Part shown: piece by piece, positions 21,707 through 57,804 of the stretch
Position numbering within the stretch: position 1 is the stretch's first letter
How the letters are laid out: every line of letters begins with the position of its first letter
Assembly: GCA_947628505.1 (NCBI GenBank)
Contig: CANRAD010000001.1
Coordinates: forward strand, 1 to 64,000
Direction of reading: 5' to 3'
DNA: 64,000 nt
Source: an uncultured Clostridia bacterium
GTDB lineage: Bacteria > Bacillota > Clostridia > Christensenellales > Borkfalkiaceae
Position numbers and translations under genes: made by a program
The notes under the pieces: generated by a model
Database searches by the model: none
What the model saw: only the letters and a program-made list of their open reading frames with translations
Told to the model about the DNA's origin: nothing

Positions 21707-21726
21707 TTTTCCACCTCAAAAAAATA

Positions 21727-21804
21727 GTATCAAAAATAGTAACTATATTATTGACAATTACTAAAATAGTAATTATAATGGATTTTAGTTTCTAAAATAG
21801 TAAC
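21727..21804 (+). promoter_or_regulatory. Promoter with three palindromic operators (module 1)
   Basis: A perfect promoter TTGACA (21751-21756) and TATAAT (21774-21779) has a 17-bp spacer that is the palindrome ATTACTAAAATAGTAAT. Related 17-mers are GTATCAAAAATAGTAAC (21727-21743) and GTTTCTAAAATAGTAAC (21788-21804). Centres lie 30 and 31 bp apart, about three helical turns. A partial copy (AAAATAGTAT) is at 21721-21730, next to the regulator's ribosome binding site. Confidence 0.82.
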
Positions 21805-21827
21805 TGATTTGATTATGTGAGGTAGAG

Positions 21828-22628
21828 ATGAAAAACAAACTTTTAGCGCTTATCTTGGGCGCGGCGATGGCATTTGGCGGTCTTTTTGCATTTTCCGCAT
21901 GCGCGGACGGTAACGGTGAAAACGGCGGCAGCGGAAGTCAAGGCGGAGGCGGTGGACAAGGCGGCAGTGGCAGCGACAAGACGACTGTCGACAATTTCGA
22001 CGAGTGGTACGCGGCTATAATGGACACGATCCACAGCGACAACTATTCCTATGAGTTAATTGTGGCTAACGGTTCACAGCAGCAACAGCCGATTACTGTT
22101 AAAAGACAGGGCGCCAATGTGGGCGCCTCTGTGACAGACATATACATGCTGTACGGGTTGGTAGGCGAACACACATTCAGATATTATGATAATTTTGATG
22201 AGTCGTGGCAGTGCACCGAGTATTCCGATAGCGAAACAAGCGAAAAGGGTACATATTATGCTCGGCTCCAATTTGAATTGGGTTGTTTCGCACTGAGGGA
22301 TGAAGGATTGTGTTCGGCTTTCGGGGATGCATTGATGTATTCCGGCACGGATTTCTATATTGAAGACGAAGACGATTTGAAAGCGATTGCGGCGGAGAGA
22401 TACGATGACGTGGTTTATGACGCAACCGAGGGCACATATACCGTTGAATATGTAAGTCAAATATCCGGCGCCGATATTTATACTTATACGTTTAAATTCC
22501 TCAACGGCAAGGTATCGAGCGTCGTGGCTAAAAACGGAGAACACGTCAGAACATATAGAAATTTCAATTACGGCAATGCAAGCATTACAATTCCCGACGA
22601 AGTCCTCGCGATAATGCCTTCCGATTAA
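21828..22628 (+). CDS. Predicted lipoprotein of unknown function
   Basis: This 266-residue protein has a lipoprotein signal peptide with lipobox FSAC (Cys about 25). A 25-residue Gly/Ser-rich linker follows, then a domain of about 215 residues rich in Tyr, Asp and Glu. I do not recognise the domain; the late segment (TYTVEYVSQISGADIYTYTF) suggests a beta-rich fold. It is the only evident target of the divergent XRE regulator and has a near-perfect promoter with an operator in its spacer, so its expression is probably tightly repressed and strong when released. The start follows GAGGTAGAG. Confidence 0.8.
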   Translation: MKNKLLALILGAAMAFGGLFAFSACADGNGENGGSGSQGGGGGQGGSGSDKTTVDNFDEWYAAIMDTIHSDNYSYELIVANGSQQQQPITVKRQGANVGASVTDIYMLYGLVGEHTFRYYDNFDESWQCTEYSDSETSEKGTYYARLQFELGCFALRDEGLCSAFGDALMYSGTDFYIEDEDDLKAIAAERYDDVVYDATEGTYTVEYVSQISGADIYTYTFKFLNGKVSSVVAKNGEHVRTYRNFNYGNASITIPDEVLAIMPSD

Positions 22629-22697
22629 TCTTACTGAGATTTGTTCAAAAGCGGATTAAATAACTCCATACTTTTTACGATTTTTCCTTAAAAACGT

Positions 22698-22726
22698 TTG
22701 CTATTTTCGCGCGCGTATGTTAAAAT
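22698..22726 (+). promoter_or_regulatory. rpsO promoter
   Basis: TTGCTA (22698-22703), a 17-bp spacer and TAAAAT (22721-22726) predict an mRNA leader of about 80 nt before rpsO. Confidence 0.78.
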
Positions 22727-22742
22727 ACTGTCCGTTACGGAT

Positions 22743-22777
22743 ACAAAGGGGTGCGAACACTCAACGGCCTTCTTTGT
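22743..22777 (+). promoter_or_regulatory. Candidate rpsO leader hairpin
   Basis: In the predicted rpsO leader ACAAAG (22743-22748) can pair with CTTTGT (22772-22777) across a long loop, upstream of the AGGAGG site. S15 represses its own translation through leader structures in several bacteria, so this is a place to look. The structure itself is only modestly supported. Confidence 0.35.
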
Positions 22778-22811
22778 TTGCCGCGAATATTTCCATAGGA
22801 GGATAAAGCAA

Positions 22812-23066
22812 ATGGAAAAGTCCGAAATCATCGCAAAGTATGCATTAAAGGAGGGCGACACGGGTTCGCCCGAAGTGCAGATTGCTCTTCTCACCGAGAG
22901 AATCAATCACCTTAACGAGCACCTTAAAGAGCACATACACGATAATCATTCGCGTCGTGGCCTTTTGAAAATGGTAGGCCGCCGCCGTGGTCTTTTGGAC
23001 TATCTCAAATCCAAGGATATCGAAAGATATCGTGCAATCGTTGCGGCTTTGGGATTGAGAAAGTAA
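22812..23066 (+). CDS. rpsO: 30S ribosomal protein S15
   Basis: This 84-residue protein has the S15 core ([44 protein letters not shown]) that binds the 16S rRNA central domain. It is a few residues shorter at the N terminus than typical S15. The upstream reading frame is open, but ATG 22812 is set by AGGAGG 12 bases before it. It is followed by pnp, the usual bacterial order. Confidence 0.97.
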
Positions 23067-23079
23067 ATATTAAAAAATT

Positions 23080-23109
23080 TGAGCGGGGTGGTATATTCCG
23101 CTCATTTTT
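23080..23109 (+). terminator. Terminator after rpsO
   Basis: TGAGCGG (23080-23086) pairs with CCGCTCA (23098-23104) and is followed by five T residues. Some readthrough into pnp is likely because no promoter was found between them. Confidence 0.85.
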
Positions 23110-23116
23110 CATAAGT

Positions 23117-23134
23117 CCGCGGCGGGCGCCGCGG
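23117..23134 (+). promoter_or_regulatory. GC-rich hairpin in the pnp leader
   Basis: CCGCGGC (23117-23123) and GCCGCGG (23128-23134) form a perfect 7-bp stem with loop GGGC, 29 bp before pnp. In E. coli the pnp leader hairpin is cut by RNase III for PNPase autoregulation. An analogous role here is inference only. Confidence 0.5.
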
Positions 23135-23163
23135 GCATAAGGAAAGAAAAGGAGTATAGGATA

Positions 23164-25260
23164 ATGACAAATTTCAAACAATTCACAACAACAATAGGCG
23201 GCAGAGAAGTCGTCGTCGAAACAGGCAAATACGCCGAACAGACGAACGGCTCGTGCGTGGTCCGTTGCGGCGATACTGCCGTAATGGTTTCGGTATGTAT
23301 GTCTCCCGCTCCCCGCGAAGGTATGGATTTCTTCCCCCTTCAAGTGGACTATGACGAGAAGATGTACGCCGTAGGCAAAATTCCCGGCGGTTTCAAAAAA
23401 CGCGAAGGAAGAGCAAGCGACAAAGCTATTTTGACTGCAAGGCTCATAGACAGACCTCTTCGCCCGCTGTTCCCCAAAGGACTTTATAACGACGTAGTGG
23501 TAACGGCGCAGGCAATCTCGGTAGAGCCCGACGTCTCTCCCGAACCTCTCGCCATGATAGGTTCATCCGTAGCTCTTGCCATTTCCGATATCCCTTGGGC
23601 AGGCCCCACGGGTTCGGTGGTAGTAGGCATGGTAGACGGCAAATATGTAATAAATCCCGACCTTGCGCAGAGACAGCAGAGCGCCATTCATTTAAATCTT
23701 GCGGGCACTAAGGACGCGATTTTAATGATAGAGGCGGGCGCCAACGAAGTTACTAACGAGGAAATGGTCGGCGCCATAATGTTCGGTCATAAAGAAATTC
23801 AGAAAATCTGCGCGTTTATCGAGGACGAGATTGTTCCCGCGGTAGGCAAGCCCAAACTCGAAATCGAACTTTATCATATTCCCGAGGAATTGGATAAAGA
23901 AGTGCGCGCTTATGCTTCGGAAAAAATCGATTGGGCTATCGATACTTTTGACAGACAGGAGAGAGAAAGAAGACAAAACGAAGCGGAAGCCGAAGTGCTC
24001 GCTCATTTTGCGGAGATTTATCCCGAAAATACGCGTGAGATAAAGGACAGCCTTTACTATCTCACAAAAGAAAAGGTTCGCGCCAAGATATTCGACAAGG
24101 GAATACGTCCCGACGGCAGAGGGTTGAAGGATGTTCGCCCCATCTGGTGCGAACGCCATGTTCTCCCCCGCGTGCACGGCTCGGCCGTGTTTACCCGCGG
24201 ACAAACTCAAACCTTAACGACTTGTACGCTTGCGATGCTCACCGAAGCACAGAAACTCGAAGGTCTTGACGAGGAAACTTCAAAAAGATATATGCACCAA
24301 TATAACTTCCCCGGCTATTGCACGGGCGAGGCAAAGGCGCTTCGTTCTCCCGGCAGACGTGAAATAGGGCACGGCGCACTTGCGGAACGCGCTCTTATTC
24401 CCGTACTTCCCGACGAGGAGAGCTTCCCCTATGCGATAAGAGTAGTCAACGACATAATGTCGTCCAACGGTTCGTCGTCAATGGCTTCGGTATGCGGCTC
24501 AACAATGGCGCTTATGGACGCGGGCGTGCCCATAAAGGCTCCCGTCGCCGGCGTGGCAATGGGCCTTATCAAAAACCAGGAGACGGGCGAGTTCAAAGTT
24601 CTCACCGATATTCAGGGCCTCGAAGATTTCCTCGGCGATATGGACTTTAAAGTGGCGGGCACCACAAAGGGCATAACCGCCATTCAGATGGATATAAAGA
24701 TTAAGGGCATTTCCGAAGAGATAATGCACACCGCCATAGATCAGGCAAACGAGGGCAGACAGTTCATTCTCTCCAAGATGCTCGAATGTGTTCCCGAAGT
24801 TGCGCCTCAGCTTTCCGTATACGCGCCCAAGATAATAAGTTTCGAAATCGATCCCGAAAAAATCGGCGACGTAATAGGCAAGCAGGGTTGCGTAATCAAG
24901 AAGATAATGGAAGAGACCGGCACGGAAATCGAATTCAACGACGACGACAGCGGCAGAGGCTATATTTCATGCACGGGCCCCATAGAGAATGCCGAGCGCG
25001 CCAAGTCTATCGTTCTTTCGATTGCTCACGATCCCGAAGTGGGAGATATGTTCGTCGGCACGGTAGTGAGAATTTTGAATTTCGGCGCTTTCGTCGAATT
25101 TGCTCCCGGCAAAGACGGCATGATTCACATCTCCAAACTTTCCGACAAGCGCGTCGACAAGGTTGAGGACGTGGTAAAAATCGGCGATACGGTCAAAGTT
25201 GAAATAATCAAAATCGGCGATAAGGGCATAGATTTGAAGTTGCTCGAAAAACTTTCTTGA
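23164..25260 (+). CDS. pnp: Polyribonucleotide nucleotidyltransferase (PNPase)
   Basis: This 698-residue phosphorolytic 3'-5' exoribonuclease has two RNase PH-like halves joined by a helical linker, a KH domain (IGDVIGKQGCVIKKIMEETGTEIEF, about 563-590) and a C-terminal S1 domain (about 620-692; FVGTVVRILNFGAFVEF). The start ATG follows AAGGAG. It stands after rpsO and its own terminator follows at 25273. Confidence 0.97.
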   Translation: MTNFKQFTTTIGGREVVVETGKYAEQTNGSCVVRCGDTAVMVSVCMSPAPREGMDFFPLQVDYDEKMYAVGKIPGGFKKREGRASDKAILTARLIDRPLRPLFPKGLYNDVVVTAQAISVEPDVSPEPLAMIGSSVALAISDIPWAGPTGSVVVGMVDGKYVINPDLAQRQQSAIHLNLAGTKDAILMIEAGANEVTNEEMVGAIMFGHKEIQKICAFIEDEIVPAVGKPKLEIELYHIPEELDKEVRAYASEKIDWAIDTFDRQERERRQNEAEAEVLAHFAEIYPENTREIKDSLYYLTKEKVRAKIFDKGIRPDGRGLKDVRPIWCERHVLPRVHGSAVFTRGQTQTLTTCTLAMLTEAQKLEGLDEETSKRYMHQYNFPGYCTGEAKALRSPGRREIGHGALAERALIPVLPDEESFPYAIRVVNDIMSSNGSSSMASVCGSTMALMDAGVPIKAPVAGVAMGLIKNQETGEFKVLTDIQGLEDFLGDMDFKVAGTTKGITAIQMDIKIKGISEEIMHTAIDQANEGRQFILSKMLECVPEVAPQLSVYAPKIISFEIDPEKIGDVIGKQGCVIKKIMEETGTEIEFNDDDSGRGYISCTGPIENAERAKSIVLSIAHDPEVGDMFVGTVVRILNFGAFVEFAPGKDGMIHISKLSDKRVDKVEDVVKIGDTVKVEIIKIGDKGIDLKLLEKLS

Positions 25261-25272
25261 TTAAAGTATGAT

Positions 25273-25310
25273 AAACGGCGCGGCCATTATCGGTTGCGCC
25301 GTTTTAATTT
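25273..25310 (+). terminator. Terminator after pnp
   Basis: AAACGGCGC (25273-25281) pairs with GCGCCGTTT (25296-25304), followed by TAATTTT. Confidence 0.88.
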
Positions 25311-25370
25311 TACAGCTTATAAAACGCGTTTGCGCACGGCTTTGCAACGGTGCGCCGACGGTTCAAATGC

Positions 25371-25399
25371 TTGACTTTGACGGACGAAAATACTATAAT
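25371..25399 (+). promoter_or_regulatory. uvrBA promoter
   Basis: TTGACT (25371-25376), a 17-bp spacer and TATAAT (25394-25399) lie 77 bp before uvrB. No GAAC-N4-GTTC type Firmicute LexA box is visible at the promoter, so SOS control is not supported by the sequence. Confidence 0.85.
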
Positions 25400-25476
25400 C
25401 AAACAAAAGTTTTTATTGTTTATGCATTGCAATTTGTTGTAATCATTCGGTTTAAGGGATATACTTTTTTAAGAAT

Positions 25477-27444
25477 ATGAAATTTGAACTTCACTCTAAA
25501 TTTCAGCCTACGGGAGATCAGCCGCAGGCAATAGAGAGTTTAACAGAGGGCGTTTTGGACGGAATACGCACGCAGGTGCTTGTTGGCGTTACCGGCAGCG
25601 GAAAGACGTTTACCATGGCAAACGTCATAAAAAACATAAACCGCCCTACTCTCGTAATAGCGCATAACAAAACGCTCGCCGCGCAGCTCTGCAATGAGTT
25701 TAAGGAGTTTTTCCCCAACAACCGCGTTGAGTATTTTGTGTCTTATTACGACTATTATCAGCCCGAAAGCTATATACCGTCAACCGACACTTATATAGAA
25801 AAGGATATGAGCTTAAACGACGAAATAGATAAGCTCAGAAATTCCGCCACGAGCTCTCTCGGCGAACGTGAGGACGTAATAGTGGTTGCGTCCGTAAGCT
25901 GTATATATGGGTTGGGCGCGCCCGAAGAGTATTTTCGTCTTGCCATTTCCTTGCGGCCGGGCATGGAACTCGAAAGAGACGCGCTTTTAAGGCGACTTGT
26001 AGAGATACAATATGCGAGGAGAGACATAGATTTCCAGCGTTCTTCGTTCCGCGTCCGCGGAGATACGGTCGAGATTTTCCCCGCTTCGAACTCGGAAATA
26101 GCGATACGCGTCGAATTTTTCGGCGATGAGATAGACAGGATATGCGAAGAGGACGCGTTGACGGGCAATATTGTTTCCGAATTGAAACACGTGCTTATCT
26201 TTCCGGCTTCGCAATATGCCGTTGGCACAGAAAAGATGCAATCGGCGCTTGCGATGATTGAAAGAGATATGCGCGACGAAGTTAAGGCGTTTCGCGACGA
26301 GGGTAAACTTTTGGAAGCTCAGCGCCTTGAACAGCGCACGACGTTTGATTTGGAAATGATGCGCGAGATAGGCTATTGCAGCGGCATAGAAAATTACAGC
26401 AGATATTTTGACGGAAGATTTCCGGGCGAACCATCGTTTACGCTCCTCGATTATTTCCCGTCCGGGAAATTTTTGGTGTTTATAGACGAAAGTCATATGA
26501 CTATTCCGCAAATCGGCGCAATGTATCACGGGGACCGTTCCAGAAAGGAAAACCTTGTAAATTACGGTTTTCGTTTAAAGTCGGCTTACGACAACCGACC
26601 GTTGACGTTCGAAGAATTCGACGAAAGAGTGCCCCAGATGATTTGCGTGTCGGCCACTCCCGCGCAGTATGAGCTCGAACAGGCGGGCAACGTCGTGGAA
26701 CAGTTGATTCGCCCCACAGGCCTTTTGGATCCCGAAGTTGAGGTTCGTCCCACGAGAACTCAGATAGACGATTTGCTCGGGGAAATCAAAAAAGTAGTTT
26801 CATCGGGCGGCAGAGTGCTTGTTACTACCATGACGAAACGCCTTGCCGAAAGCCTTACCGACTTTTTAAAAGAGCACGGAACCAAAGTGCGGTATATGCA
26901 CAGCGATATAGACGCGCTCGAACGCATAGATATTATCAACGGATTGCGCGGCGGCGAATTCGACGTGTTGTGCGGCATAAATCTTTTGCGGGAAGGGCTT
27001 GATTTGCCGGAAGTAAAACTTGTTGCCATTCTCGACGCGGATAAAGAAGGATTTCTGAGGAGCGAAACTTCGCTCGTTCAGACGATAGGCAGAGCCGCAA
27101 GAAACGCCGAGGGCAGAGTAATTATGTACGCCGACGTTATAACGGGCAGTATGCGCAGAGCCATCGATGAGACGAACCGCCGCAGAAAGATTCAGGACGA
27201 ATACAATAAAGCGCACGGAATAGTGCCGAAAACCATTATAAAAGAAGTCAGGAACACTATTGGCATAACGGGTAAAAAGAGCGTAGGCGACGATTTGAAA
27301 TTTGCCGATATCCCGGCCGAAATAGAGAAGTTGAAGGCTCTGATGAAAGTTGCCTCGGCTCAGCTTGATTTCGAAAAGGCAATTGAAATAAGAGATACGA
27401 TAACTCAGCTTAAAAAGAAACTTCTTAAGAGTAAAAAACAATGA
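25477..27444 (+). CDS. uvrB: Excinuclease ABC subunit B
   Basis: This 655-residue helicase-like subunit verifies DNA damage in nucleotide excision repair. Walker [10 protein letters not shown], the damage-probing beta-hairpin region [20 protein letters not shown], helicase motifs ([15 protein letters not shown]) and the C-terminal UVR motif that contacts UvrC are present. Four bases overlap uvrA (ATGA), giving coupled synthesis. Confidence 0.97.
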
Positions 27445-30254
27445 AAGAAGAGATTTTCGTTAAGGGTGCAAAAGAAAACAACCTTAAAAATATAGACGTG
27501 CACATTCCCCGCAATTCTCTGACGGTATTCACGGGGCTTTCCGGAAGCGGGAAATCTACTCTCGCTTTCGATACCATTTTCGCCGAAGGACAGAGAAGAT
27601 ATATAGAAAGTCTGTCTTCTTATGCCCGGCAGTTCTTGGGACAGATGGAAAAACCGGACGTCGAATCCATAGACGGGCTTTCGCCGGCCATTTCGATAGA
27701 TCAGAAAACAACGTCGCATAACCCGCGCTCCACCGTCGGAACGGTTACGGAAATTTACGATTATTTCAGGCTTTTATTCGCCCGCGTGGGGATTCCGCAT
27801 TGTCCGAATTGCGGCAGAGAAATCAGAAAGCAATCCGTAGACGAAATATGCGACAGAGTTATGTTGATGCCGGAGGGCAGCAAGATAATCGTCGAAGCTC
27901 CCGTAGTAAGGGGCAAAAAAGGCGAATTTCAAAAGGAACTCGCAGGTTGGAAAAAGAGCGGTTACGGCAGAGTAAAAGTCGACGGCATAATTTACGACTT
28001 GCAGGAGGAAATTCACCCAGAAAAGAATATCCGCCACAATATTTCCGTCGTTATTGACAGACTTGTAATAAAAGACGGCGTGTTAAAGCGCTTGACCGAC
28101 AGCGTGGAAAGCGCTCTCAATCTTGCCAACGGTCTTGTCGTAATAGATGAAGACGGTTCGGAAGAACTCTATTCGTCCAATTACGCATGTCCCGACTGCG
28201 GAATTTCCATAGAAGAGATAGAGCCTCGTCTGTTTTCTTTCAATACGCCGTGGGGAGCATGTCCGGAGTGTTCCGGGCTCGGATTCAAACAAATAGTGGA
28301 TCCGGACCTTATTTGTCCGGATAAAACGAAAACGCTCAGAGAGGGCGCCATAAAGATAAGCGGCTGGAATCTCGATTCCTCCACGATAACGCAGATGTAT
28401 CTGAATTCCCTTTCGAGGCATTACGGCTTTTCTATGGATGTTCCCGTCAAGGATTTGCCCGCAGAAGTCTATGACCTTCTGATGTACGGCAACGGCGGTG
28501 AAAAAATCGATTTGGAATATCATGCGTATAATTTTTCGGGAAGTTACAAAAAAGAATGGGAAGGTTTTGTAACCAATCTCCAACGCAGGTATAACAATAC
28601 TTCGTCCGAAGGAGTAAAATGGGATATCGAGCGGTATATGCGCACGTCCGATTGTCCGCTCTGTCATGGCAAAAGACTTAAAAAAGAGGCGTTGGCCGTA
28701 ACCGTCGGAGGCAAAAATATCGCGGAAGTGTGCGATATGTCCGTCGATGATTTAAAAGCGTTTGCGGATTTTTCGTTTTTCAATAAAACGGAACACCTTA
28801 TAGCAGACAGCATTATAAAGGAAATCGACAACAGAATCAGCTTTCTCGAAAACGTCGGGCTCGGTTATCTTACGCTTTCCCGTTCCGCGGCCACGCTTTC
28901 AGGCGGGGAGAGCCAGCGTATTCGTCTTGCAACGCAGATAGGCAGCGCTTTAACCGGCGTTTTGTATATTCTCGACGAGCCGAGTATCGGGTTGCATCAA
29001 AGAGATAACAGAAAACTTCTTGCTTCGCTTTTGGGACTGAGGGATTTGGGAAACACTCTGATAGTGGTGGAACACGACGAAAATACCATACGCGCCGCGG
29101 ATTATATCGTAGATATCGGTCCGAAAGCAGGCGTCAACGGCGGAGAAGTCGTTGCTTGCGGAACGCAAGAGGATATTATGAACGAACCGCGGTCGATAAC
29201 GGGCGATTATCTTGCGGGGCGCAGAAAAATAGCTGTTCCCGACGTGCGCTTGGAACCGGGCGACAAGTGGCTTGAAGTTTACGGTTGCAGACAGAACAAT
29301 CTGAAAAATATCGGAGTTCGCGTGCCGGCCGGACTGATAACCGTTGTAACCGGCGTTTCCGGAAGCGGGAAGTCGAGCTTGGTCAACGAAATAATTTATC
29401 CGTATCTCGCAAATAAATTGAACGGCGCTCGCCAACCGCTTGGAAAGTGCGAAAGAATAGACGGCGTTGAATATTTCGACAAAGTAATAGCAATAGACCA
29501 ACAGCCCATAGGCAGAACGCCGAGAAGCAATCCCGCAACTTACACCGGAGTGTTCACTATGATACGCGATATTTTCGCGGCGACTGCGGACGCAAAGGAA
29601 AGAGGCTATAAGAGCGGAAGATTCTCGTTTAACGTTGCGGGAGGGAGGTGCGAGCACTGTCAGGGCGACGGAATAATTCAAATCGAAATGCATTTCCTCC
29701 CGGATATTTACGTGCCTTGCGAAGTGTGCGGAGGTAAGCGATATAACCGTGAAACATTGGAAGTGAAATATAAAGGCAAATCAATATCCGATGTGCTTGA
29801 AATGACGGTTGCGGAAGCATGCGAATTCTTTAAACCGGTGACTTCCATATACAATAAACTTTCCACTTTAAACGATGTCGGGCTCGGTTATATTAAACTC
29901 GGACAGAGCGCGACCACTCTTTCGGGAGGAGAGGCCCAAAGGGTGAAACTTGCAACCGAGCTGTCCAAAAGAAGCACGGGCAAAACATTTTATATACTTG
30001 ACGAACCCACGACGGGCTTGCACAGTTACGACGTGGACAAACTCATAAAAATACTTTCGAGATTGCGTGCCGGAGGCAATACGGTGCTTGTCATCGAACA
30101 TAATCTTGACGTTATCAAATGCGCGGATTGGATAATAGACCTCGGCCCCGAGGGCGGAGATAAAGGCGGAGAAGTGGTTGCCGCCGGTAATCCGGAGTAT
30201 ATAGCGAGCGTCGGCAAGAGTTACACAGGACAATTCCTCAAAGAAATTCTGTAA
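27441..30254 (+). CDS. uvrA: Excinuclease ABC subunit A
   Basis: This 937-residue ABC-type damage sensor has two nucleotide-binding halves ([15 protein letters not shown] near the N terminus; [15 protein letters not shown] near residue 640) and two LSGGE signatures. Zinc-binding cysteine groups are CPNCG, CPDCG...CPECSGLG and CEHCQGDG...CEVCGGKRY. It loads UvrB at lesions. A terminator follows 5 bp after the stop. Confidence 0.97.
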
Positions 30255-49698: not shown

Positions 49699-49721
49699 AT
49701 ATTAAACCACGGAGCAATTAG

Positions 49722-50738: not shown

Positions 50739-50747
50739 GAGGAAAGT

Positions 50748-51842
50748 ATGGAAGAAGAAGTTATTTCTCCCGAAGAAACGGAAACCTTGCAGACCGAAGT
50801 TGTGCCGGAAACGCCCGCTCCCGAAGAGCCCTCTTCCGATGATTTGCACGGAGAAAATCTCGGGGACAGAGTGAAAGTTCTTTCGCCTATGCGCACGGTT
50901 ATGAAGAGGTTTTTCCGCTCAAAACTGTCCATAGTCGGCCTTGTTATAATAATAGCTTTGTTTTTGATTTCGTTTTTCGGACCGCTGTTCTCGCCTTGGG
51001 GCGAAATGGAGCCCGATAAAACTCCCAAGACCATGGTAACGGCTCAGGAGATACGTTACACCGACGATGAAGGCAATTCGTATTCGGCTTACGATATCCT
51101 TGTGAGCGAGAGCCTTACGAATATCCGCGGAGAAATCAGTTGGCAGCATTGGCTCGGCACTGACGAAAACGGTTACGATGTATTCACGCGCCTTATGTAC
51201 GGCGGCAGAATTTCGCTTACGATAGGATTTATCGTCGTAATTCTGGAAACTATTCTTGGCGTTATTCTGGGAGGTATAGCCGGTTATTTCGGCGGCAAAG
51301 TCGATAACGTGATAATGCGTATAGTCGACGTCCTATATTGCATACCGCAGTTGCCGATAATGCTTATTATATCTGCGATATACGATACTATGGGGCTGAC
51401 AAGCATTATCCGACTATACTATATGATGGGTATTCTGACTTTGATAGGATGGGCCGGCACCGCAAGATTGGTGCGAGGGCAGATTCTATCATTGCGAGAG
51501 CAGGAATTTATGCTTGCGGCAACGGCTTCGGGACTTTCGGCGCGCAAGAAGATTTTCAAGCATCTGATTCCGAACGTAATGCCGCAGCTTATAGTTTCCA
51601 TGACGCTTGGCCTCGGCAGTATCATCTTAACCGAAGCCACTTTGGGTTTCCTCGGAATAGGCGCGCCCATGGGCACGGCTACGTGGGGAGCAATGATAAA
51701 TTATGCGACCAACATGAACTATTTGCAGAATTTCCCCAATTGGTGGATTCCGCCCGGCATATGTATTACGCTTGCGATTCTTGCGTTTAACTTTGTCGGC
51801 GACGGCTTGCGCGACGCGTTCGATCCCAAGATGAAGAGGTAA
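50748..51842 (+). CDS. oppC: Oligopeptide ABC transporter permease OppC
   Basis: This 364-residue permease has an acidic cytoplasmic N-terminal tail of about 45 residues (EEEVISPEETETLQTEVVPE), then the OppC_N helix (SIVGLVIIIALFLISFFGPLF) and the core domain with the EAA loop (FMLAATASGLSARKKIFKHLIPNVMPQLI). The acidic tail is longer than in most OppC proteins. RBS AGGAGG. Partner of OppB. Confidence 0.94.
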   Translation: MEEEVISPEETETLQTEVVPETPAPEEPSSDDLHGENLGDRVKVLSPMRTVMKRFFRSKLSIVGLVIIIALFLISFFGPLFSPWGEMEPDKTPKTMVTAQEIRYTDDEGNSYSAYDILVSESLTNIRGEISWQHWLGTDENGYDVFTRLMYGGRISLTIGFIVVILETILGVILGGIAGYFGGKVDNVIMRIVDVLYCIPQLPIMLIISAIYDTMGLTSIIRLYYMMGILTLIGWAGTARLVRGQILSLREQEFMLAATASGLSARKKIFKHLIPNVMPQLIVSMTLGLGSIILTEATLGFLGIGAPMGTATWGAMINYATNMNYLQNFPNWWIPPGICITLAILAFNFVGDGLRDAFDPKMKR

Positions 51843-51845
51843 ACA

Positions 51846-53225
51846 ATGTCGGATACCAACAACGAAACGAAAAAGGAACTACAAAAAGAAAAGAAGTCCC
51901 ATTATATTACCAGAGCCGAATCCCGCAGAATTGCAAAGGAAAACATAAAGGCGACAAAATTCTACGAGAAGCGCAAAAAGCGCAAAGTCGTAGAAAGCGA
52001 ATATGTTACCGAAATGAAGGATCCGCAAAACGTTGTGGAGTTCGACGATTTGCATACATATTTCTTTACCGACGCAGGCGTAGTAAAAGCTGTAAACGGG
52101 GTAACTTTTTCCATTCCCGAGGGCTCAACAGTAGGCGTCGTCGGCGAGAGCGGTTGCGGCAAAAGCGTAACTTCGCTTTCGCTCATGCAACTTGTGCAAG
52201 GACCGGTGGGGCAGATTGTAGATGGTTCTATACGTTTTAAATCTTACGATTATAAGCGCGACGCTCATGGCCGCAAGATTCCCGTTTATAAAAAGGAAAA
52301 GGACGAAAACGGCGAAGAAAAAGTTGTTCTCAATAAGTATGGGAAGCCGATAATAGAGAAAAATTCCCTCGGCGGAAATCTCTATGAAATGGAAGAGAAA
52401 GTTGTCGATATAGCAAAGATGCCCACAGAGGCCATGCGCGCCATTCGCGGCAGAGAAATAGCGATGATTTTCCAGGAACCCATGACGTCGCTCAATCCCG
52501 TATTCACGATAGGAAATCAGCTCAACGAAGTCGCTTTTCTGCACATTGAAGGCATTTCCAAAGCAAAGGCCAAAGAGCGCAGTATCGAAATGTTGTCGCT
52601 TGTCGGTATGGCGGATTCGGAGGGAGTGTATAAAAAATACCCTCACGAACTTTCCGGCGGTATGCGCCAAAGAGTTATGATTGCCATGGCTCTTTTGTGC
52701 AATCCTAAACTGATAATCGCCGACGAACCCACAACGGCGCTTGACGTTACGATACAGGCGCAGATTCTTGATTTGCTCAGAAATATAAAGCAGAAAATCA
52801 ACGGCAGCATAATGTTGATTACGCACGATTTGGGCGTGGTAGCCGAGATGGCGGACTACGTAGTGGTTATGTATGCCGGAAAGATAATAGAAATGGGCAC
52901 TGCCGAAGATATTTTCGATCATCCGCTGCATCCTTACACGATAGGTTTGCAGAAAAGCAAACCCACTGTAGAGGGCGAAGTGGAATCGCTTTATAATATC
53001 CCCGGCTTTGTTCCCAATCCCATAGATATGCCGGATTATTGCTATTTCCGCGACAGATGCGAAATGTGCAAAAAGGAATGTGCCGGAGAATATCCCAAAC
53101 TTGTCAAAGTTTCGAGTACGCACAGTGTTTCATGTTATCTTTATAATGAGGGAGAATTTGATAAGAAGGAGGTAAAGTCAAGTGCAGGCAGAAAACGCAG
53201 AACAACAAAACGCGCTTCCGAATGA
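51846..53225 (+). CDS. oppD: Oligopeptide ABC transporter ATPase OppD, with insert
   Basis: This 459-residue ATPase has Walker A GESGCGKS, Q-loop IFQEPMTSL, signature LSGGMRQRVMIAMAL, Walker B LIIADEPTTALD and the C-terminal cysteine cluster (CYFRDRCEMCKKEC) of oligopeptide ATPases. It is about 110 residues longer than typical OppD. There is a basic N-terminal extension (~1-60) and a ~65-residue lysine-rich insert between Walker A and the Q-loop (GRKIPVYKKEKDENGEEKV region). Its stop lies 44 bp inside oppF. Confidence 0.93.
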   Translation: MSDTNNETKKELQKEKKSHYITRAESRRIAKENIKATKFYEKRKKRKVVESEYVTEMKDPQNVVEFDDLHTYFFTDAGVVKAVNGVTFSIPEGSTVGVVGESGCGKSVTSLSLMQLVQGPVGQIVDGSIRFKSYDYKRDAHGRKIPVYKKEKDENGEEKVVLNKYGKPIIEKNSLGGNLYEMEEKVVDIAKMPTEAMRAIRGREIAMIFQEPMTSLNPVFTIGNQLNEVAFLHIEGISKAKAKERSIEMLSLVGMADSEGVYKKYPHELSGGMRQRVMIAMALLCNPKLIIADEPTTALDVTIQAQILDLLRNIKQKINGSIMLITHDLGVVAEMADYVVVMYAGKIIEMGTAEDIFDHPLHPYTIGLQKSKPTVEGEVESLYNIPGFVPNPIDMPDYCYFRDRCEMCKKECAGEYPKLVKVSSTHSVSCYLYNEGEFDKKEVKSSAGRKRRTTKRASE

Positions 53226-54453
53226 CGTTGTCGAAGAAAAAACGGACGTCGCCGCACCGACTCCCGCAGAAGAAACTGCGGAAGAGTTAAACGCGCCTCT
53301 TCTTGAAGTCAAGAACTTAAAGAAATATTTTGTCGTGGATAAAACCCTTTTGGGCAAGCCGTGTGCCTTTTTAAAAGCTGTGGACGGGGTGTCGTTTAAA
53401 CTTGAAAGAGGTAAAACGTTGGGAATAGTCGGCGAAAGCGGCTGCGGCAAAACTACTATGGGCAGAACCATATTGCGCCTTTACGATATAACCGACGGCG
53501 AAATATGGTTTAAAGGCAGAGAAGTTTCCAGACTCAAACCTCGCGAATTCAATAAATTGCGCCCTCATATGCAAATGATCTTTCAGGATCCTTATGCAAG
53601 CCTTTCACCCAGATTGACGGTAGGCGAGATAATCGGCGAGGCGGCGCTTGAACACGGAATAGTCGATAAAGCGCATTACAGAGAATATATCCTTCAAATT
53701 ATGAAGATGTGCGGGTTACAGCCTCATTATTTCGAGAGATATCCGCACGAATTTTCGGGCGGCCAGCGCCAGAGGATATGCATCGCCCGTGCGCTTGCGC
53801 TTAAACCCGAGCTTGTAATATGCGACGAACCCGTTTCCGCGCTTGACGTTTCCATTCAGGCTCAGATTATAAATATGCTCAAAGACTTGCAAAAATCATT
53901 GCAGTTGACCTATGTGTTTATATCCCATGATTTGTCGGTCGTAAAGCATATATCCGATTCCGTCGGCGTAATGTATTTGGGAAGTATGGTTGAGTACGGC
54001 GTTAAATCCGATATTTTCGAGCATACCCTTCATCCATACACAAAGGCGCTTTTTTCCGCTGTTCCGGTGCCCAATCCGCACGTAAAAATGAACAGGATTA
54101 TCTTAAAAGGCGATATTCCTTCGCCCGTTAATCCTCCGGCGGGTTGTAAATTCCATACGCGTTGCGAATATTGCATGGACATATGCGAGGATATTCCGCC
54201 GGAATACAGAGAAGTGGAAGAAGGTCATTATTGCGCTTGCCATCTGTATAACTCTCCCGAGGACAATTTGAAATATAAAGAGCAGATGGAAGAGTTGTTG
54301 CGTAAAAAGCGCGAAGAAGATCAGAAGAAACTTGAAAAATCTTTGAAATACAGGTTATTCAAAGCAGATAAAAAGAAAGAATCGGCGCCCGACGAAAACA
54401 AAGCGGAAGCCGAATCCCCGAAAGAGGAAAAAAATGGCGAAGAGGAAGCCTGA
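53182..54453 (+). CDS. oppF: Oligopeptide ABC transporter ATPase OppF
   Basis: This 423-residue ATPase has Walker A GESGCGKT, Q-loop IFQDPYASL, signature FSGGQRQRICIARAL, Walker B LVICDEPVSALD and a C-terminal cysteine cluster (CKFHTRCEYCMDIC). A charged Lys/Glu tail of about 60 residues extends past the family domain. Translation starts at GTG 53182 behind AGAAGGAGGT, overlapping oppD by 44 bp. It pairs with OppD to power OppBC. Confidence 0.94.
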   Translation: MQAENAEQQNALPNDVVEEKTDVAAPTPAEETAEELNAPLLEVKNLKKYFVVDKTLLGKPCAFLKAVDGVSFKLERGKTLGIVGESGCGKTTMGRTILRLYDITDGEIWFKGREVSRLKPREFNKLRPHMQMIFQDPYASLSPRLTVGEIIGEAALEHGIVDKAHYREYILQIMKMCGLQPHYFERYPHEFSGGQRQRICIARALALKPELVICDEPVSALDVSIQAQIINMLKDLQKSLQLTYVFISHDLSVVKHISDSVGVMYLGSMVEYGVKSDIFEHTLHPYTKALFSAVPVPNPHVKMNRIILKGDIPSPVNPPAGCKFHTRCEYCMDICEDIPPEYREVEEGHYCACHLYNSPEDNLKYKEQMEELLRKKREEDQKKLEKSLKYRLFKADKKKESAPDENKAEAESPKEEKNGEEEA

Positions 54454-54685
54454 GGACGATCTCGATACCGAAACTACTTTTGCCAATATGAACGTCGAGG
54501 GTTTCCGTTGGTATGATCCGCACAAGAAACCTAAAAACGAAAAAACCAAAAAGCAAAAAGTATCAAAGAAAGAATATAGAGCTATGGTTAAAGGCGCTTT
54601 TCTCGCAATGTTTCCTTTCATTGTCGGCGCCGTAATCATTATGGGTATTCTGTTTCTGTTGTGTTGGGTTTGGTTGGGAAGTTGA
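54434..54685 (+). CDS. Small single-pass membrane protein
   Basis: This 83-residue protein has a charged N-terminal half rich in Lys and Asp (about 1-50) and one C-terminal transmembrane helix (about 54-80; FLAMFPFIVGAVIIMGILFLLCWVW). It overlaps the oppF end by 20 bp and has GAGG upstream, so it belongs to the operon. I recognise no family. The topology would put the charged part in the cytoplasm, where it could contact OppD/OppF, but this is conjecture. Confidence 0.75.
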   Translation: MAKRKPEDDLDTETTFANMNVEGFRWYDPHKKPKNEKTKKQKVSKKEYRAMVKGAFLAMFPFIVGAVIIMGILFLLCWVWLGS

Positions 54686-54699
54686 ATGAATAATATGTA

Positions 54700-54733
54700 G
54701 AGGTCTGCGCATTTGAAGCGCAGACCTCGTTTT
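54700..54733. terminator. Terminator ending the 20-kb operon
   Basis: GAGGTCTGCGC (54700-54710) pairs perfectly with GCGCAGACCTC (54718-54728) over a 7-nt loop, followed by GTTTT. It is the first strong terminator after the promoter at 33988. Confidence 0.9.
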
Positions 54734-54739
54734 ATAAGC

Positions 54740-54779
54740 GCGCTGTGCCCGCAATCAATTTTGATTGCGGGCACAGCGC
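54740..54779. repeat. 19-bp perfect inverted repeat
   Basis: Bases 54740-54758 are the exact reverse complement of 54761-54779, with a 2-bp centre (core GTGCCCGCAATC/GATTGCGGGCAC). It lies 7 bp after another terminator stem and no T tract follows on either strand. It could back up termination between the converging genes or be a remnant of a mobile or REP-like element. Confidence 0.75.
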
Positions 54780-54805
54780 TTGATTTAATATCGATTTTCA
54801 ATAAG

Positions 54806-55138
54806 TCAATAGTAGTAATACGGTGCGATTTCAACAATGTATGATGCAAATCCTACGAAAGCTATTATCAAAACTATATCGAGAATGATGGCTAACCAGC
54901 TTATAATAATTCATGCGAGCGCAAACCCCTCTCCGTCGAGATTCTCTTTGCGGCACTTTTTACGCGCTATAATACTGCAAATAAGGCCGGCAATGGAAAA
55001 AAAGAACGAAAGTATAAATCCCACAACAGCCAGCGAGCATGTCTGCTTCTTTTTCTCGATTTCTTTTATTTGCACTCCGCAATAAGGGCAAATCACGGCA
55101 TTATCGCCGACTTCTCTTCCGCAATTTTTGCAAAACAT
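54806..55138 (-). pseudogene. Zinc-ribbon membrane protein interrupted by in-frame TGA
   Basis: From ATG 55138 (RBS AGGAG) the frame encodes a zinc ribbon CKNCGREVGDNAVICPYCG, then a hydrophobic helix (SLAVVGFILSFFFSIAGLICSI) and a short linker ending DGEGFALA. It then stops at TGA (54911-54913) after 75 codons. The same frame continues for 34 codons as a second hydrophobic helix (IIISWLAIILDIVLIIAFVG) to the stop at 54806. Related zinc-ribbon/DUF4190-like proteins have two helices joined by ALAG-type sequence, so TGA probably replaces GGA (Gly). It is module 2's target, divergent from an XRE regulator. Confidence 0.72.
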
Positions 55139-55168
55139 ATGAAATTTTCTCCTTTGCATTCTGTGCAT

Positions 55169-55221
55169 ATTATATTCCCATTATAATGGGGAGTCAAGTA
55201 TTTTTCCCATTAATATGGGAA
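55169..55221 (-). promoter_or_regulatory. Promoter with two palindromic operators (module 2)
   Basis: The reverse-strand promoter TTGACT (55192-55197) and TATAAT (55169-55174) has a 17-bp spacer (55175-55191) that is the near-perfect palindrome TTCCCATTATAATGGGG. A second copy, TTCCCATTAATATGGGAA, is at 55204-55221 close to the start of the divergent regulator gene. Centres are about 30 bp apart. Confidence 0.82.
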
Positions 55222-55230
55222 AATATTAGT

Positions 55231-55434
55231 ATGAAGGAATTCGGAGAACGCTTGCGCGCATTGCGTCTTGAAAAGGGGATGGGACAAATACAGCTTGCAA
55301 AAGAGCTTGAAGTCGGTAAATCTGTTATAAGTTTGTGGGAGCTCGGGAAATGCGAACCTACTCTTTCCAAGCTCGTTGCGATTTCGAAATTTTTCGGAGT
55401 TACGATAGATTATCTCGTAGGACTTGAAGACTGA
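55231..55434 (+). CDS. XRE-family transcriptional regulator (module 2)
   Basis: This 67-residue minimal Cro/CI helix-turn-helix protein (GQIQLAKELEVGKSVISLWEL as the HTH; PTLSKLVAISKFFGVTIDYLVG after it) closely resembles the module 1 regulator except in the recognition helix. The upstream frame is open, but ATG 55231 gives the family length. Only a weak GGGA lies upstream, inside the second operator, so operator binding could also hinder its own expression. A hairpin follows 5 bp after the stop. Confidence 0.85.
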   Translation: MKEFGERLRALRLEKGMGQIQLAKELEVGKSVISLWELGKCEPTLSKLVAISKFFGVTIDYLVGLED

Positions 55435-55438
55435 AAAG

Positions 55439-55463
55439 CGCCCGCGGCATATTGCCGCGGGCG
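55439..55463 (+). terminator. Hairpin after the module 2 regulator
   Basis: CGCCCGCGGCA (55439-55449) pairs with TGCCGCGGGCG (55453-55463) over a 3-nt loop. The following TCTGTTT is a weak T tract. It may also contribute to ending pyk from the other side. Confidence 0.7.
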
Positions 55464-55524
55464 TCTGTTTGAATTATCTGTTTTGATTTGTATCGTGCAA
55501 TTAAACTGCGGTCGGGCGTTACGG

Positions 55525-56943
55525 TTATACCGTTTCAACGTTTATAAGGTTGGAATTGCCGCTCTTGCCGTTAGGCGTTCCGCCGGTAAGTACGATTTTA
55601 TCGCCTTTCTGAACAAGTCCGGAATCGATAGCCGCGCGTTTGGCATAGTGGAAGAGGACGTCGACGGAATAGAACTCGTCGCTCATAACGGGAATAACTC
55701 CCCAGCTCAAAGCCAATTTTCTGTATGCGCGTTCATCGGTAGTCATTCCTATAATATCTATCATAGGTCTGAATCTCGATACGGTTCTTGCGGTACCGCC
55801 GGTTCTTGTGCAGACAACTATAACTTTTGCCCCTATATCCTGAGCCAAGGTGCAAGCGGAATGTGAAAGCGCTTCGGCAAGATTTTTGATTTGATAAGAG
55901 CTGTCGTCTATATGAGCTATGTATTGAGTGTTTGATTCGGCTTGCTGAGCTATTTTTGCCATTGCTCTGACCGCTTCAACGGGATATGCTCCCGCGGCGG
56001 TCTCGCCGGAAAGCATAATGGCGGAGGAGCCGTCGTAAACGGCGTTTGCAACGTCCGAAATTTCCGCACGGGTGGGGCGTGGTTGCTTTATCATCGATTC
56101 GAGCATTTCGGTTGCCGTAACGCTTCTCTTTCCTTTTATGCGGCAGGAGTTTATTATTTTTTTCTGAATACCGGGCAGCTCTTCGAAAGGAACTTCAACG
56201 CCCAAATCGCCGCGCGCAACCATAATTCCATCCGAAACGGCCAATATTTCCTCTAAATTATTGACTCCGGCCCGGCTTTCAATTTTAGCGATAAGCTCTA
56301 TTTCTTTTTCGGGCGAACCGCACATTTTGAGCCAATTTCTCACGTCTATAACGTCCTGAGCCTTTGAAACAAATGAGAGCGCTATAAAGTCAATGCCTTG
56401 TTCGACGCCGAATTTTATGTCCGCTTTATCTTGTTCGGAAAGATATATCATATCCAGCTCTTTATCGGGGAAGAACATACTCTTTCTGTTGGAGAGTTCG
56501 CCTCCGACTACGGTTTTGCAGATAACGTCTGGCTTTTCAACGCGCACGACTTCGAATATCATCAGTCCGTTGTTCAGAAGAATTTTATCCCCGGGGAACA
56601 TTTGCTCGCATAACCCCTCGAAAGAAACGGAAACGCGATTTTTGTCGCCTATTATATCGTCGGTGGTAAAAGTGAATGTGTCGCCGTCTTTTAAGGTGAT
56701 TTTTCCGTCCGCAAACGTCTTGATTCTGAATTCCGGTCCTTTTGTATCGAGCATAATGGGGAGAGGAACTTTTTTGCGCTCTCTGATCCGCTTTATCATA
56801 GCGATTTTTGCGGCATGCTCTTCATGCGTGCCGTGCGAAAAATTGAGCCTTGCAACGTTCATTCCGGCGTCAATCATCTCCGAGAGCACGATTTCGTTAT
56901 CGCTCGCGGGGCCTAATGTGCAAATAATCTTTGTTTTTTTCAT
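55525..56943 (-). CDS. pyk: Pyruvate kinase
   Basis: This 472-residue glycolytic enzyme makes pyruvate and ATP from phosphoenolpyruvate. KIICTLGPAS, the active-site region LIAKIESRAGVNNLEEI with IMVARGDLGVEVP, and the C-terminal regulatory domain (IVCTRTGGTARTVSRFRP) are present. It lacks the extra phosphotransferase-like C-terminal domain found in Bacillus enzymes. Start ATG 56943 has GAGGAG upstream. It is a single-gene unit, divergent from rnpB. Confidence 0.97.
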   Translation of the reverse strand: MKKTKIICTLGPASDNEIVLSEMIDAGMNVARLNFSHGTHEEHAAKIAMIKRIRERKKVPLPIMLDTKGPEFRIKTFADGKITLKDGDTFTFTTDDIIGDKNRVSVSFEGLCEQMFPGDKILLNNGLMIFEVVRVEKPDVICKTVVGGELSNRKSMFFPDKELDMIYLSEQDKADIKFGVEQGIDFIALSFVSKAQDVIDVRNWLKMCGSPEKEIELIAKIESRAGVNNLEEILAVSDGIMVARGDLGVEVPFEELPGIQKKIINSCRIKGKRSVTATEMLESMIKQPRPTRAEISDVANAVYDGSSAIMLSGETAAGAYPVEAVRAMAKIAQQAESNTQYIAHIDDSSYQIKNLAEALSHSACTLAQDIGAKVIVVCTRTGGTARTVSRFRPMIDIIGMTTDERAYRKLALSWGVIPVMSDEFYSVDVLFHYAKRAAIDSGLVQKGDKIVLTGGTPNGKSGNSNLINVETV

Positions 56944-56978
56944 AATAAGCTCCTCAAATGTATTTTATATCAGTATCT

Positions 56979-57007
56979 ATTCTAAATTAAATTTAATCAA
57001 AAATCAA
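56979..57007 (-). promoter_or_regulatory. pyk promoter
   Basis: On the reverse strand TTGATT (57002-57007), a 17-bp spacer and TAGAAT (56979-56984) precede pyk by about 35 bp. Confidence 0.7.
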
Positions 57008-57025
57008 TATCAAACTCAAAAATAG

Positions 57026-57055
57026 TTGTTTTTATTTTAAATAAAGTGCTAAAAT
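57026..57055 (+). promoter_or_regulatory. rnpB promoter
   Basis: TTGTTT (57026-57031), an 18-bp spacer and TAAAAT (57050-57055) place transcription start near 57062, where the RNase P RNA begins. Confidence 0.65.
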
Positions 57056-57062
57056 ATAACCG

Positions 57063-57421
57063 ATTTGAGTTAATCATACGGTCGCGGGTTGCGCAAGCAA
57101 CGTGAGGAAAGTCCGAGCATCGAAGGGCAGGGTGCCTGTTAACGGCAGGTGGAGGCGACTTCAAGGAAAGTGAACAGAAATATACCGCCGTGCGTTTTGC
57201 GCGGTAAGGTTGGAATGGCGAGGCAAGAGCTCACCGTTGTCCCGGTAACGGGACAAGCCAATTAAACCCCACCCGATGCAAGATTGGGCTTGCGGCTTAC
57301 TTAAATGTAAAGGACGGCCCGTCCGCCGCACGCCGTGAATATCGCTTGAGCTTGCAGGTGACTGCAAGATTAGATAGATGACCGTACACGACAGAACTCG
57401 GCTTACAGATTAATCTCAAAT
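57063..57421 (+). ncRNA. rnpB: RNase P RNA
   Basis: The catalytic RNA that matures tRNA 5' ends. Conserved bacterial blocks are present in order: GAGGAAAGTCCGAGC (about 57102-57116), GGTAAGGTTGGAATGGCGAG with CAAGAGCTCACCG, TAAACCCCACCCGATG, TAGATAGATGACCG and the 3' ACAGAACTCGGCTTACAG. The ends (TTTGAGTTAATC and GATTAATCTCAAA) pair to form P1. A terminator follows. Confidence 0.96.
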
Positions 57422-57437
57422 TGTTTTCATATGGCGG

Positions 57438-57469
57438 CTCTGCGGCTTATGTCGCGGAGTTGTCTTTTT
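57438..57469 (+). terminator. rnpB terminator
   Basis: CTCTGCG (57438-57444) pairs with CGCGGAG (57453-57459, one G-T pair), followed by TTGTCTTTTTG. Confidence 0.78.
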
Positions 57470-57483
57470 GTTTCCGGGTAGTA

Positions 57484-57514
57484 AGCGGCGGCGCCTTAAA
57501 TAGGCGCCGCCGCT
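57484..57514. terminator. 12-bp hairpin at the end of the module 3 regulator
   Basis: AGCGGCGGCGCC (57484-57495) pairs perfectly with GGCGCCGCCGCT (57503-57514) over loop TTAAATA, 7 bp past the regulator stop on the reverse strand. No T run follows, so termination is probable but not certain. Confidence 0.65.
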
Positions 57515-57520
57515 CGATTT

Positions 57521-57730
57521 CTATTCCCAACCGAAGAGCTCATTTGGCGTTACGTCGAATCTCTTGCACAGATAAACTATTTTTTCGTAGTCGAGCTGTA
57601 TTTTGCCCGTTTCATACTCACTGTAATCTGATTGATATTTCTTCAACTCCGCCGCAATCTGTTTTTGGGTTATTCCTTTTTCCGTCCTCGCACGTTTCAG
57701 GTTTTCACCTACGATTTTACTTATGTCCAT
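57521..57730 (-). CDS. XRE-family transcriptional regulator (module 3)
   Basis: This 69-residue helix-turn-helix protein (GITQKQIAAELKKYQSDYSEYE; IVYLCKRFDVTPNELFGWE) is again a bare HTH domain. The frame is open further upstream, but ATG 57730 behind GGAGG is the start and gives family length. It is more diverged than the module 1 and 2 regulators. It is transcribed away from the LRR lipoprotein gene, with palindromes between them. Confidence 0.85.
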   Translation of the reverse strand: MDISKIVGENLKRARTEKGITQKQIAAELKKYQSDYSEYETGKIQLDYEKIVYLCKRFDVTPNELFGWE

Positions 57731-57751
57731 ATTGACGCCTCCTTTATTAAT

Positions 57752-57804
57752 ATAGGAAAAAATACTATATTTCTGTTGACATATAGGAAATTTTCCTATA
57801 TAAT
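57752..57804 (+). promoter_or_regulatory. Promoter with two palindromic operators (module 3)
   Basis: TTGACA (57776-57781) and TATAAT (57799-57804) are separated by 17 bp, TATAGGAAATTTTCCTA, which is palindromic (ATAGGAAA/TTTCCTAT form at 57783-57799). A degenerate copy, ATAGGAAAAAATACTAT (57752-57768), is centred 31 bp upstream, next to the regulator's ribosome binding site. Confidence 0.82.

Follow-up and report, generated by a model that had tools for sequence, protein, structure and literature searches.

Three divergent gene pairs share one promoter and operator design

The window analysed here, the whole stretch of 64,000 nucleotides from an uncultured Clostridia bacterium (Christensenellales, Borkfalkiaceae; assembly GCA_947628505.1, contig CANRAD010000001.1, positions 1 to 64,000 of the forward strand), contains three gene pairs, here modules 1, 2 and 3, in which a small XRE-type regulator gene is divergent from a putative lipoprotein or membrane protein gene, its target (Table 1). 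An initial annotation of this DNA had described the regulators as bare helix-turn-helix (HTH) proteins of 67-81 residues, each facing a near-perfect target promoter whose 17-bp spacer is itself a palindrome. We verified the coordinates of the three pairs, and the proteins have 81, 67 and 69 residues. All three regulators exceeded the curated Pfam cut-off for at least one of PF01381, PF12844 and PF13443 (the 81-residue regulator 1 for PF13443 and PF01381, not for PF12844); their Pfam matches are to HTH families only, and the proteins stop after the HTH. No C-terminal dimerisation or autocleavage domain was found in the three window regulators, Pfam revealed no sensor domain in them, and it gave no HTH match, as an opposing Cro-type regulator would have, in the three window targets.

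Table 1. Positions in the window of the three modules and of the genes bordering the exchange site of module 1.
Feature	Position	Strand	Description
Module 1 regulator	21464..21706	-	81-aa bare Cro/C1-type HTH; TTG start; Shine-Dalgarno-like GAGGTGG
Module 1 imperfect operator copy, regulator side	21726..21744		Centre 21735, 30 bp from O1; read by eye
Module 1 target promoter	21751..21779	+	TTGACA-N17-TATAAT
Module 1 operator O1	21756..21774		AATTACTAAAATAGTAATT, ATTACT..AGTAAT; inside spacer
Module 1 extra operator copy, target leader	21787..21805		AGTTTCTAAAATAGTAACT; centre 21796, 31 bp off; read by eye
Module 1 target	21828..22628	+	266-aa putative lipoprotein; no Pfam family
Module 2 target	54911..55138	-	75-aa membrane protein with zinc ribbon; DUF4190 match below cut-off
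Module 2 target promoter	55169..55197	-	TTGACT-N17-TATAAT
Module 2 operator O1	55177..55190		CCCATTATAATGGG; inside spacer; centre 55183.5
Module 2 operator O2	55206..55219		CCCATTAATATGGG; centre 55212.5; 29 bp closer to regulator
Module 2 regulator	55231..55434	+	67-aa bare HTH; no visible Shine-Dalgarno; may be leaderless
Module 3 regulator	57521..57730	-	69-aa bare HTH; Shine-Dalgarno-like GGAGG
Module 3 operator O2	57751..57769		TATAGGAAAAAATACTATA; centre 57760; 31 bp closer to regulator
Module 3 target promoter	57776..57804	+	TTGACA-N17-TATAAT
Module 3 operator O1	57782..57800		TATAGGAAATTTTCCTATA; inside spacer; centre 57791
Module 3 target	57834..59414	+	Putative lipoprotein, LRR_5 (BspA-type) repeats; start is the ATG after AGGAGG
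Left flank gene of exchange site	20062..21420	+	Presumably HemZ-like protein
Right border gene of exchange site	22812..23066	+	Presumably rpsO-like, ribosomal protein S15
Right flank gene of exchange site	23164..25260	+	Presumably pnp, polynucleotide phosphorylase

Both strands of the window were scanned for TTGACA-N(16-18)-TATAAT with a penalty of at most 2.5 and a spacer palindrome score of at least 5. Five sites were obtained, among which modules 1, 2 and 3 were the best (scores of 8, 7 and 9), and the remaining two scored 5. A comparison set of 35 other window genes, hand-picked from the list of open reading frames, included one gene with such a site on either strand.

The design recurs in the source genome and in its relatives

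The source genome (1.71 Mb in 40 contigs) contains 77 perfect TTGACW-N17-TATAAT sites and 29 matches to PF12844. Under a strict design rule, 11 of these 29 XRE genes carry the arrangement, against 0.11 predicted by shuffles; they comprise 8 of the 13 genes encoding at most 90 residues and 3 of the 16 larger ones. The spacers point in the same direction: the nine of the 77 perfect promoters whose position assigns them to XRE genes average a palindrome score of 5.5, compared with 3.0 for the 68 others (Mann-Whitney p 2e-5). At loci L023 and L033 the divergent promoter is perfect and the spacer palindrome too weak for the strict rule. In a different situation are L026 (G000:C17:2264-2437), where an XRE gene is interrupted by an in-frame TAA, lacks a good promoter and adjoins a zinc-ribbon-like open reading frame, probably a decaying or broken copy of the cassette, and L030 (G000:C7:49262-49411), which has a perfect divergent promoter but whose better repeats, judged by eye (TTGCAC..GTGCAA), flank the promoter and not its spacer.

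We then considered the genus, represented by 93 species in the collection. With a homologue cut-off of E ≤1e-6 and paralogues counted, regulator 1 has homologues in 88 of the 93 species and regulator 3 in 60. The 224 loci compared, the source genome included, contain 240 XRE genes, 210 of them small and with at least 120 bp upstream. In a register test, the best upstream palindrome was located blind to promoters, and a score of at least 7, the threshold, was found at 133 of the 210 small genes. For 55 of these 133, a divergent promoter departing from consensus at no more than two positions has its spacer centred on the palindrome, 34 of them at one register and 21 at the neighbouring one; the remaining 23 registers tested hold 0-2 each, and the strand of the regulator itself 0 or 1. 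The large XRE genes gave no such peak, with one case at the spacer-centre registers (13 of 25 had a palindrome). A module was called at 140 of the 210 small genes, or 100 once near-duplicates were collapsed. Regulator 2 also led to 66 named genomes, of which 40 show the design under a slightly more permissive rule, a count that omits one locus too short to score; uncultured Clostridia and Candidatus Gallimonas are among these genomes, and deer and goat samples are the source of some. An enrichment of palindromic spacers at XRE genes, whose absence at other small ones would have spoken against the initial annotation, is seen in the source genome (11 of 29 versus 0.11) and at small XRE genes of the source genome and relatives together (55 versus 0-2).

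Some loci contain several XRE genes. L101 (G068:C2:53500-57000) has four small ones within 1.8 kb, two of them almost identical, with one DUF6809-like and one lipoprotein-like target, and L123 and L135 have three XRE genes each.

The operator covaries with the recognition helix

In partial Mantel tests on the modules that corrected for the remainder of the protein, operator distance correlated with recognition-helix distance (r = 0.37) and with four contact positions (r = 0.42), more strongly than it did with the remainder once the helix was corrected for (r = 0.16). Each partial r exceeds 2000 permutations, the p-values being only indicative because the modules were picked for their palindromes and the sequences are related. 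The columns that best account for the operator, of at most 64, are h1 and h6, followed by T21, outside the helix, and h2. When aligned with P22 c2, h1, h2 and h6 line up with three c2 residues, which we take to be among those that contact DNA. Pairs of regulators with an identical helix and less than 50% identity elsewhere have an operator distance of 0.07 (8 pairs), compared with 0.51 for different helices on similar bodies (339 pairs) and 0.56 when both differ (4188 pairs). Examples of the correspondence are as follows: QK(L/M)TRW goes with ATTACT, TQQQYSRF with TACATCA, YQSDYSEY with TATAGGA, GKSVISLW with TTCCCA, SKGIISLW with TTCTTAC, SQRSISSW with TAGCTC, and NQTTVSQW with TTAGGTC. The 140 modules show 55 different contact quadruples, a count that overstates the number of specificities because some quadruples share an operator. 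Single-linkage operator classes were also tried as a measure of specificity and dropped, since these classes chain together.

The initial annotation had suspected a replicated family with one design and different operators, and had named covariation of spacer palindrome and recognition helix as a decisive check; the family is strongly supported, the covariation included, and is wider than was claimed (11 of 29 XRE genes in the source genome, 140 of 210 small ones in the loci compared, 55 quadruples).

A second operator lies near the regulator start

The three window modules were said to have a further operator copy 29.5-31 bp away, near the regulator. This is the case in modules 2 (29 bp) and 3 (31 bp); module 1 departs from this, with an imperfect regulator-side copy at 30 bp and a better match 31 bp away on the target side. 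This last offset, +31, is the best second site in two modules of the contact class of module 1. A second site scoring at least 0.70 is present in 115 of the 140 modules, on the regulator side at -29 bp in 58 and at -31 bp in 24. The spacing varies with the contact class: all 21 modules of class GKSL, to which module 2 belongs with its 29 bp, have it at 29, and nine of the 17 modules of class TQQR have a good second site, at 31. Across the 140 modules the second site resembles the module's own operator (mean score of 0.82) more than foreign ones (0.60), and in 87 modules the own operator outscores all of up to ten foreign ones compared.

In 80 of 140 modules the distance between the regulator start and the beginning of the target -35 box is 33 or 34 bp. 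Upstream of the regulators, matches to TATAAT (4 of 6 positions) are most frequent at exactly 6 nt from the start codon, in 48 of 101, other distances between 0 and 27 nt giving 5 to 28 of 101. Using one motif list for both, a Shine-Dalgarno sequence was found for 17 of 101 regulators versus 71 of 93 targets, a comparison that is favoured by the choice of target starts, which gave some preference to Shine-Dalgarno sequences. In 14 of the 17 regulators bearing this sequence the promoter is about 10 bp or more further off; window modules 1 and 3 are of this kind, and module 2 is not. Judged from these sequences, many regulators look leaderless.

Operators appear mostly, but not entirely, private

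The exact module 3 operator, TATAGGA-N5-TCCTATA, occurs in 9 of the 93 genomes and in 8 of them adjoins a regulator 3 homologue; the exception, in G027, is close to a contig end. A site with at most one mismatch lies beside the homologue in 11 of the 12 genomes whose regulator 3 homologue is at least 65% identical (G074 has none), and in the source genome both matches to the pattern, one exact and one with a mismatch, are inside module 3. With one mismatch allowed, the 93 genomes contain 41 such sites versus 76 for a backwards control; since the pattern is no commoner than the control, the argument rests on the place of the sites and not on their number. For the module 2 pattern, TTCCCA-N6-TGGGAA, a search of the 93 genomes with one mismatch was not selective, the backwards control being similar, and we make no claim of privacy for it.

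The 11 source-genome modules were also compared with one another. On average the own second site scores 0.81, against 0.64 for the best foreign match; the own site is better than all foreign matches in six modules and ties in one, while a foreign match is better in four (C1:21.7, which is module 1, C14, C17 and C7). The operators of C1:21.7 and C14 cross-match at 0.83 both ways, that of C14 (ATTACC..GGTAAT) being near the ATTACT..AGTAAT of module 1. The palindromes, said to differ completely, do so among the three window modules and not across the genome. Full orthogonality should therefore not be assumed, and we infer a mutual insulation that is partial.

Targets vary, and cassettes are exchanged at one site

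Among the targets of the 11 strict modules of the source genome, five are putative lipoproteins (that of L013 by eye only) and three are zinc-ribbon membrane proteins, which agrees with the surface or membrane role first proposed for them. In the genus sample, however, the commonest Pfam match is to DUF6809, a small family of unknown function (21 of 93 targets). The genus sample yielded 105 proposed targets, nine more modules being without one, and the Pfam scan covered the 93 with a leader of at most 100 nt and at least 60 residues. DUF6809 is followed by Zn_Ribbon_1 (7), DUF4190 (5), LRR_5, TM2 and bPH_2 (4 each), and a TIR domain appears once; most of the 23 families listed are of lipoprotein, membrane, zinc-ribbon, LRR or unknown type. 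In relatives, 46 of the 105 targets are small proteins for which no membrane segment is predicted, and some targets have PHROG matches of unknown function.

The same repressor-operator pair adjoins different genes: at seven loci with regulator 3 homologues 73-89% identical (L069-L075), the module 3 target was not found by tblastn and the proposed targets differ, the lone weak hit, in L072, being on the opposite side of the regulator. Module 2 behaves otherwise. At its six closest named loci the target is kept (identity of 83-91% for the regulator and 67-71% for the target), and pyk, 91-94% identical, stands beside the module in five of the six, in one with an XRE-like gene between; this module looks vertically inherited.

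Module 1 lies in the interval between hemZ and rpsO-pnp, as we name these genes. The pnp gene was located in 77 of the 93 genomes, and both flanks of the site are visible in 63. The site is empty in 35 of these and occupied in 11 by a cassette in the same orientation, with seven helix types; five have a different, co-oriented XRE gene and 12 something else. Fourteen genomes with pnp have no left flank in the stretch, and four of them carry a cassette. No clear spacer palindrome is present in two of the 11 site cassettes (L243 and L283). The sequences at this one fixed intergenic site indicate that cassettes have been gained, lost and replaced there. The different XRE gene (L271, L275, L280, L284 and L290) encodes an 82-residue protein of another kind (ISYETYR), and we found no strong palindrome in a spacer beside it.

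A compact repressor cassette as the likely function

The geometry of promoter and operators, its recurrence, the covariation and the exchange at one site can be read in the sequences, and from them we consider, with a probability of about 85%, that the modules are compact repressor cassettes, complete in themselves and comparable to a lambda-like region cut down to a minimum, in each of which an autorepressed bare HTH protein silences one strong divergent promoter. The regulator, of the Cro/C1 type and with some 65-80 residues, would bind as a dimer to the palindrome in the spacer of the near-consensus divergent promoter, so that RNA polymerase would be excluded, the two being unable to bind simultaneously. 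The second operator, usually 29 or 31 bp toward the regulator, would cover the weaker promoter of the regulator itself, by which the repressor would cap its own level; that promoter is predicted to be often leaderless, with a -10 box ending 6 nt before the ATG. Without repressor the target would be on, from a strong promoter and usually with a good Shine-Dalgarno sequence. Because helix and operator change together, many cassettes could coexist in a genome with limited cross-talk. The anatomy is that of a repressor working within the core of a promoter and feeding back on its own, shrunk to about 70 residues and 100 bp.

Several observations weigh against this proposal. The strict rule leaves out 18 of the 29 XRE genes of the source genome, no module was called at 70 of the 210 small XRE genes, and 26 of the 66 named relatives lack the design. 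The relatives were sampled by their similarity to the window regulators and are not random, and kinship makes the sequences non-independent. The covariation set was selected for having palindromes, and the rest of the protein, given the helix, still explains some operator distance (partial r = 0.16). Two of the five top-scoring spacers among the perfect promoters have no XRE gene. The promoters and leaderless starts are predictions, and the bias in target starts, the one-mismatch count for the module 3 operator and the four better foreign matches, all given above, belong here as well.

The alternative that fares best, although we regard it as less likely than not, is that the cassettes are mobile selfish or phage-like elements whose repressor confers immunity: entry into a naive cell would cause a burst of target expression, and specificity would define the immunity group. 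The turnover at the hemZ-rpsO-pnp site, with seven helix types among its 11 occupants and 35 empty sites, is what such elements would leave, as are the tandem XRE genes of L101, L123 and L135 and the PHROG matches among targets. It sits less well with the apparent vertical inheritance of module 2, whose target and pyk are kept in close loci, and no integrase or boundary repeat was noticed, though neither was systematically sought.

Rather doubtful is a bistable or stochastic switch for surface variation, in which a low, autorepressed repressor would lapse and single cells would turn the target on. Negative autoregulation alone usually narrows expression, the window targets include no opposing Cro-like regulator, and many targets in relatives are the small proteins, 46 of 105, for which no membrane segment is predicted. 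The idea draws on the weak, often leaderless and presumably autorepressed regulator opposite a consensus promoter, on the window regulators having no sensory domain, and on the lipoproteins and membrane proteins among source-genome targets; in addition, bistability in E. coli is reported for a lambda-like region whose repressor is leaderless (PMC8630535).

Toxin-antitoxin modules with an XRE antitoxin, which would also be small two-gene islands with an apparently self-regulating XRE gene, and for which the TIR domain in one of 93 targets might speak, are very improbable: we rejected this reading because the genes are divergent and form no operon, and none of the 23 target families listed from Pfam is a classical toxin of such systems. 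That AT-rich palindromes coincide with promoters by chance, as they may at some promoters without an XRE gene (of six such source-genome stretches we inspected three, which we take for chance and which presumably lie at S10-like, small membrane-protein and tRNA-like genes), has a negligible probability as a general explanation, being contradicted by the register test, the shuffles and the helix covariation.

An extension of the repressor cassette reading would join several of these elements into a plug-and-play system: repressor-promoter cassettes would move as units between targets and fixed sites, with dozens of largely insulated specificities set by few helix residues, some ten independent and possibly stochastic switches of surface or accessory genes per cell, and specificity groups acting as immunity groups. 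Taken as a whole, we hold this to be speculative and unlikely.

Relation to known systems

The modules appear closest to the lambdoid immunity region (cI/cro PR-PRM; P22 c2; CP-933P PaaR2/YdaS), whose members differ in specificity, and share with it, judged by sequence, divergent promoters and palindromic operators overlapping both, as well as a related HTH, since phmmer matches regulator 2 to P22 c2 (E 9e-6). The repressor mRNAs of cI and PaaR2 are reported to be leaderless (PMC8630535). Unlike that region, the window modules have one HTH-only regulator with no C-terminal domain and no Cro, and modules usually have two operators and one target gene of varied kind, with many specificities per chromosome. 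The window modules would work like the lambda immunity region yet miss two of its defining features.

The best match of regulator 3 in the PDB is C.BclI (E 4e-4). Controller (C) proteins of restriction-modification systems are also small bare XRE proteins that autoregulate through paired sites; in the modules, by contrast, the operator sits inside a strong divergent promoter, and no restriction or modification gene was noticed adjoining those of the window. The PDB matches of regulator 2 include the Xre-family regulator of ICEBs1 (7t8i) and ComR, which have in common with it the XRE DNA-binding domain; ComR carries a peptide-sensing domain, whereas the window proteins stop after the HTH. The LacI, GntR, IclR and MerR families are mostly ligand-binding regulators with larger regulons, in contrast to bare XRE proteins adjoining their own sites. 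The likeness is in the recognition code, comparative genomics having tied DNA-binding domain to site in these families (PMC2978694, PMC4494728, PMC8222616 and PMC5045206).

Repressors usually overlap the polymerase site (PMC4280137), so the geometry of a single module is ordinary; its replication, precise register, covariation and exchange are not. No description of this switch family was found among the literature titles searched, subscription journals being mostly outside the coverage. These gut bacteria thus carry many small two-gene units in which a tiny DNA-binding protein appears to silence the strong promoter of its neighbour from inside that promoter, mostly each with its own operator, so that several can coexist in a cell. 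With numerous bare XRE repressors found in nature beside their likely operators in a fixed register, the recognition code of the family becomes directly readable and testable. The set also offers many small repressor-promoter pairs to synthetic biology, and it shows how compact genes with their own regulation can enter, leave or replace one another in a genome while cross-regulation stays low.

Finally, a class A RNase P RNA (Rfam RF00010, 256 bits) lies at window positions 57066-57422 (+), immediately adjoining module 3.

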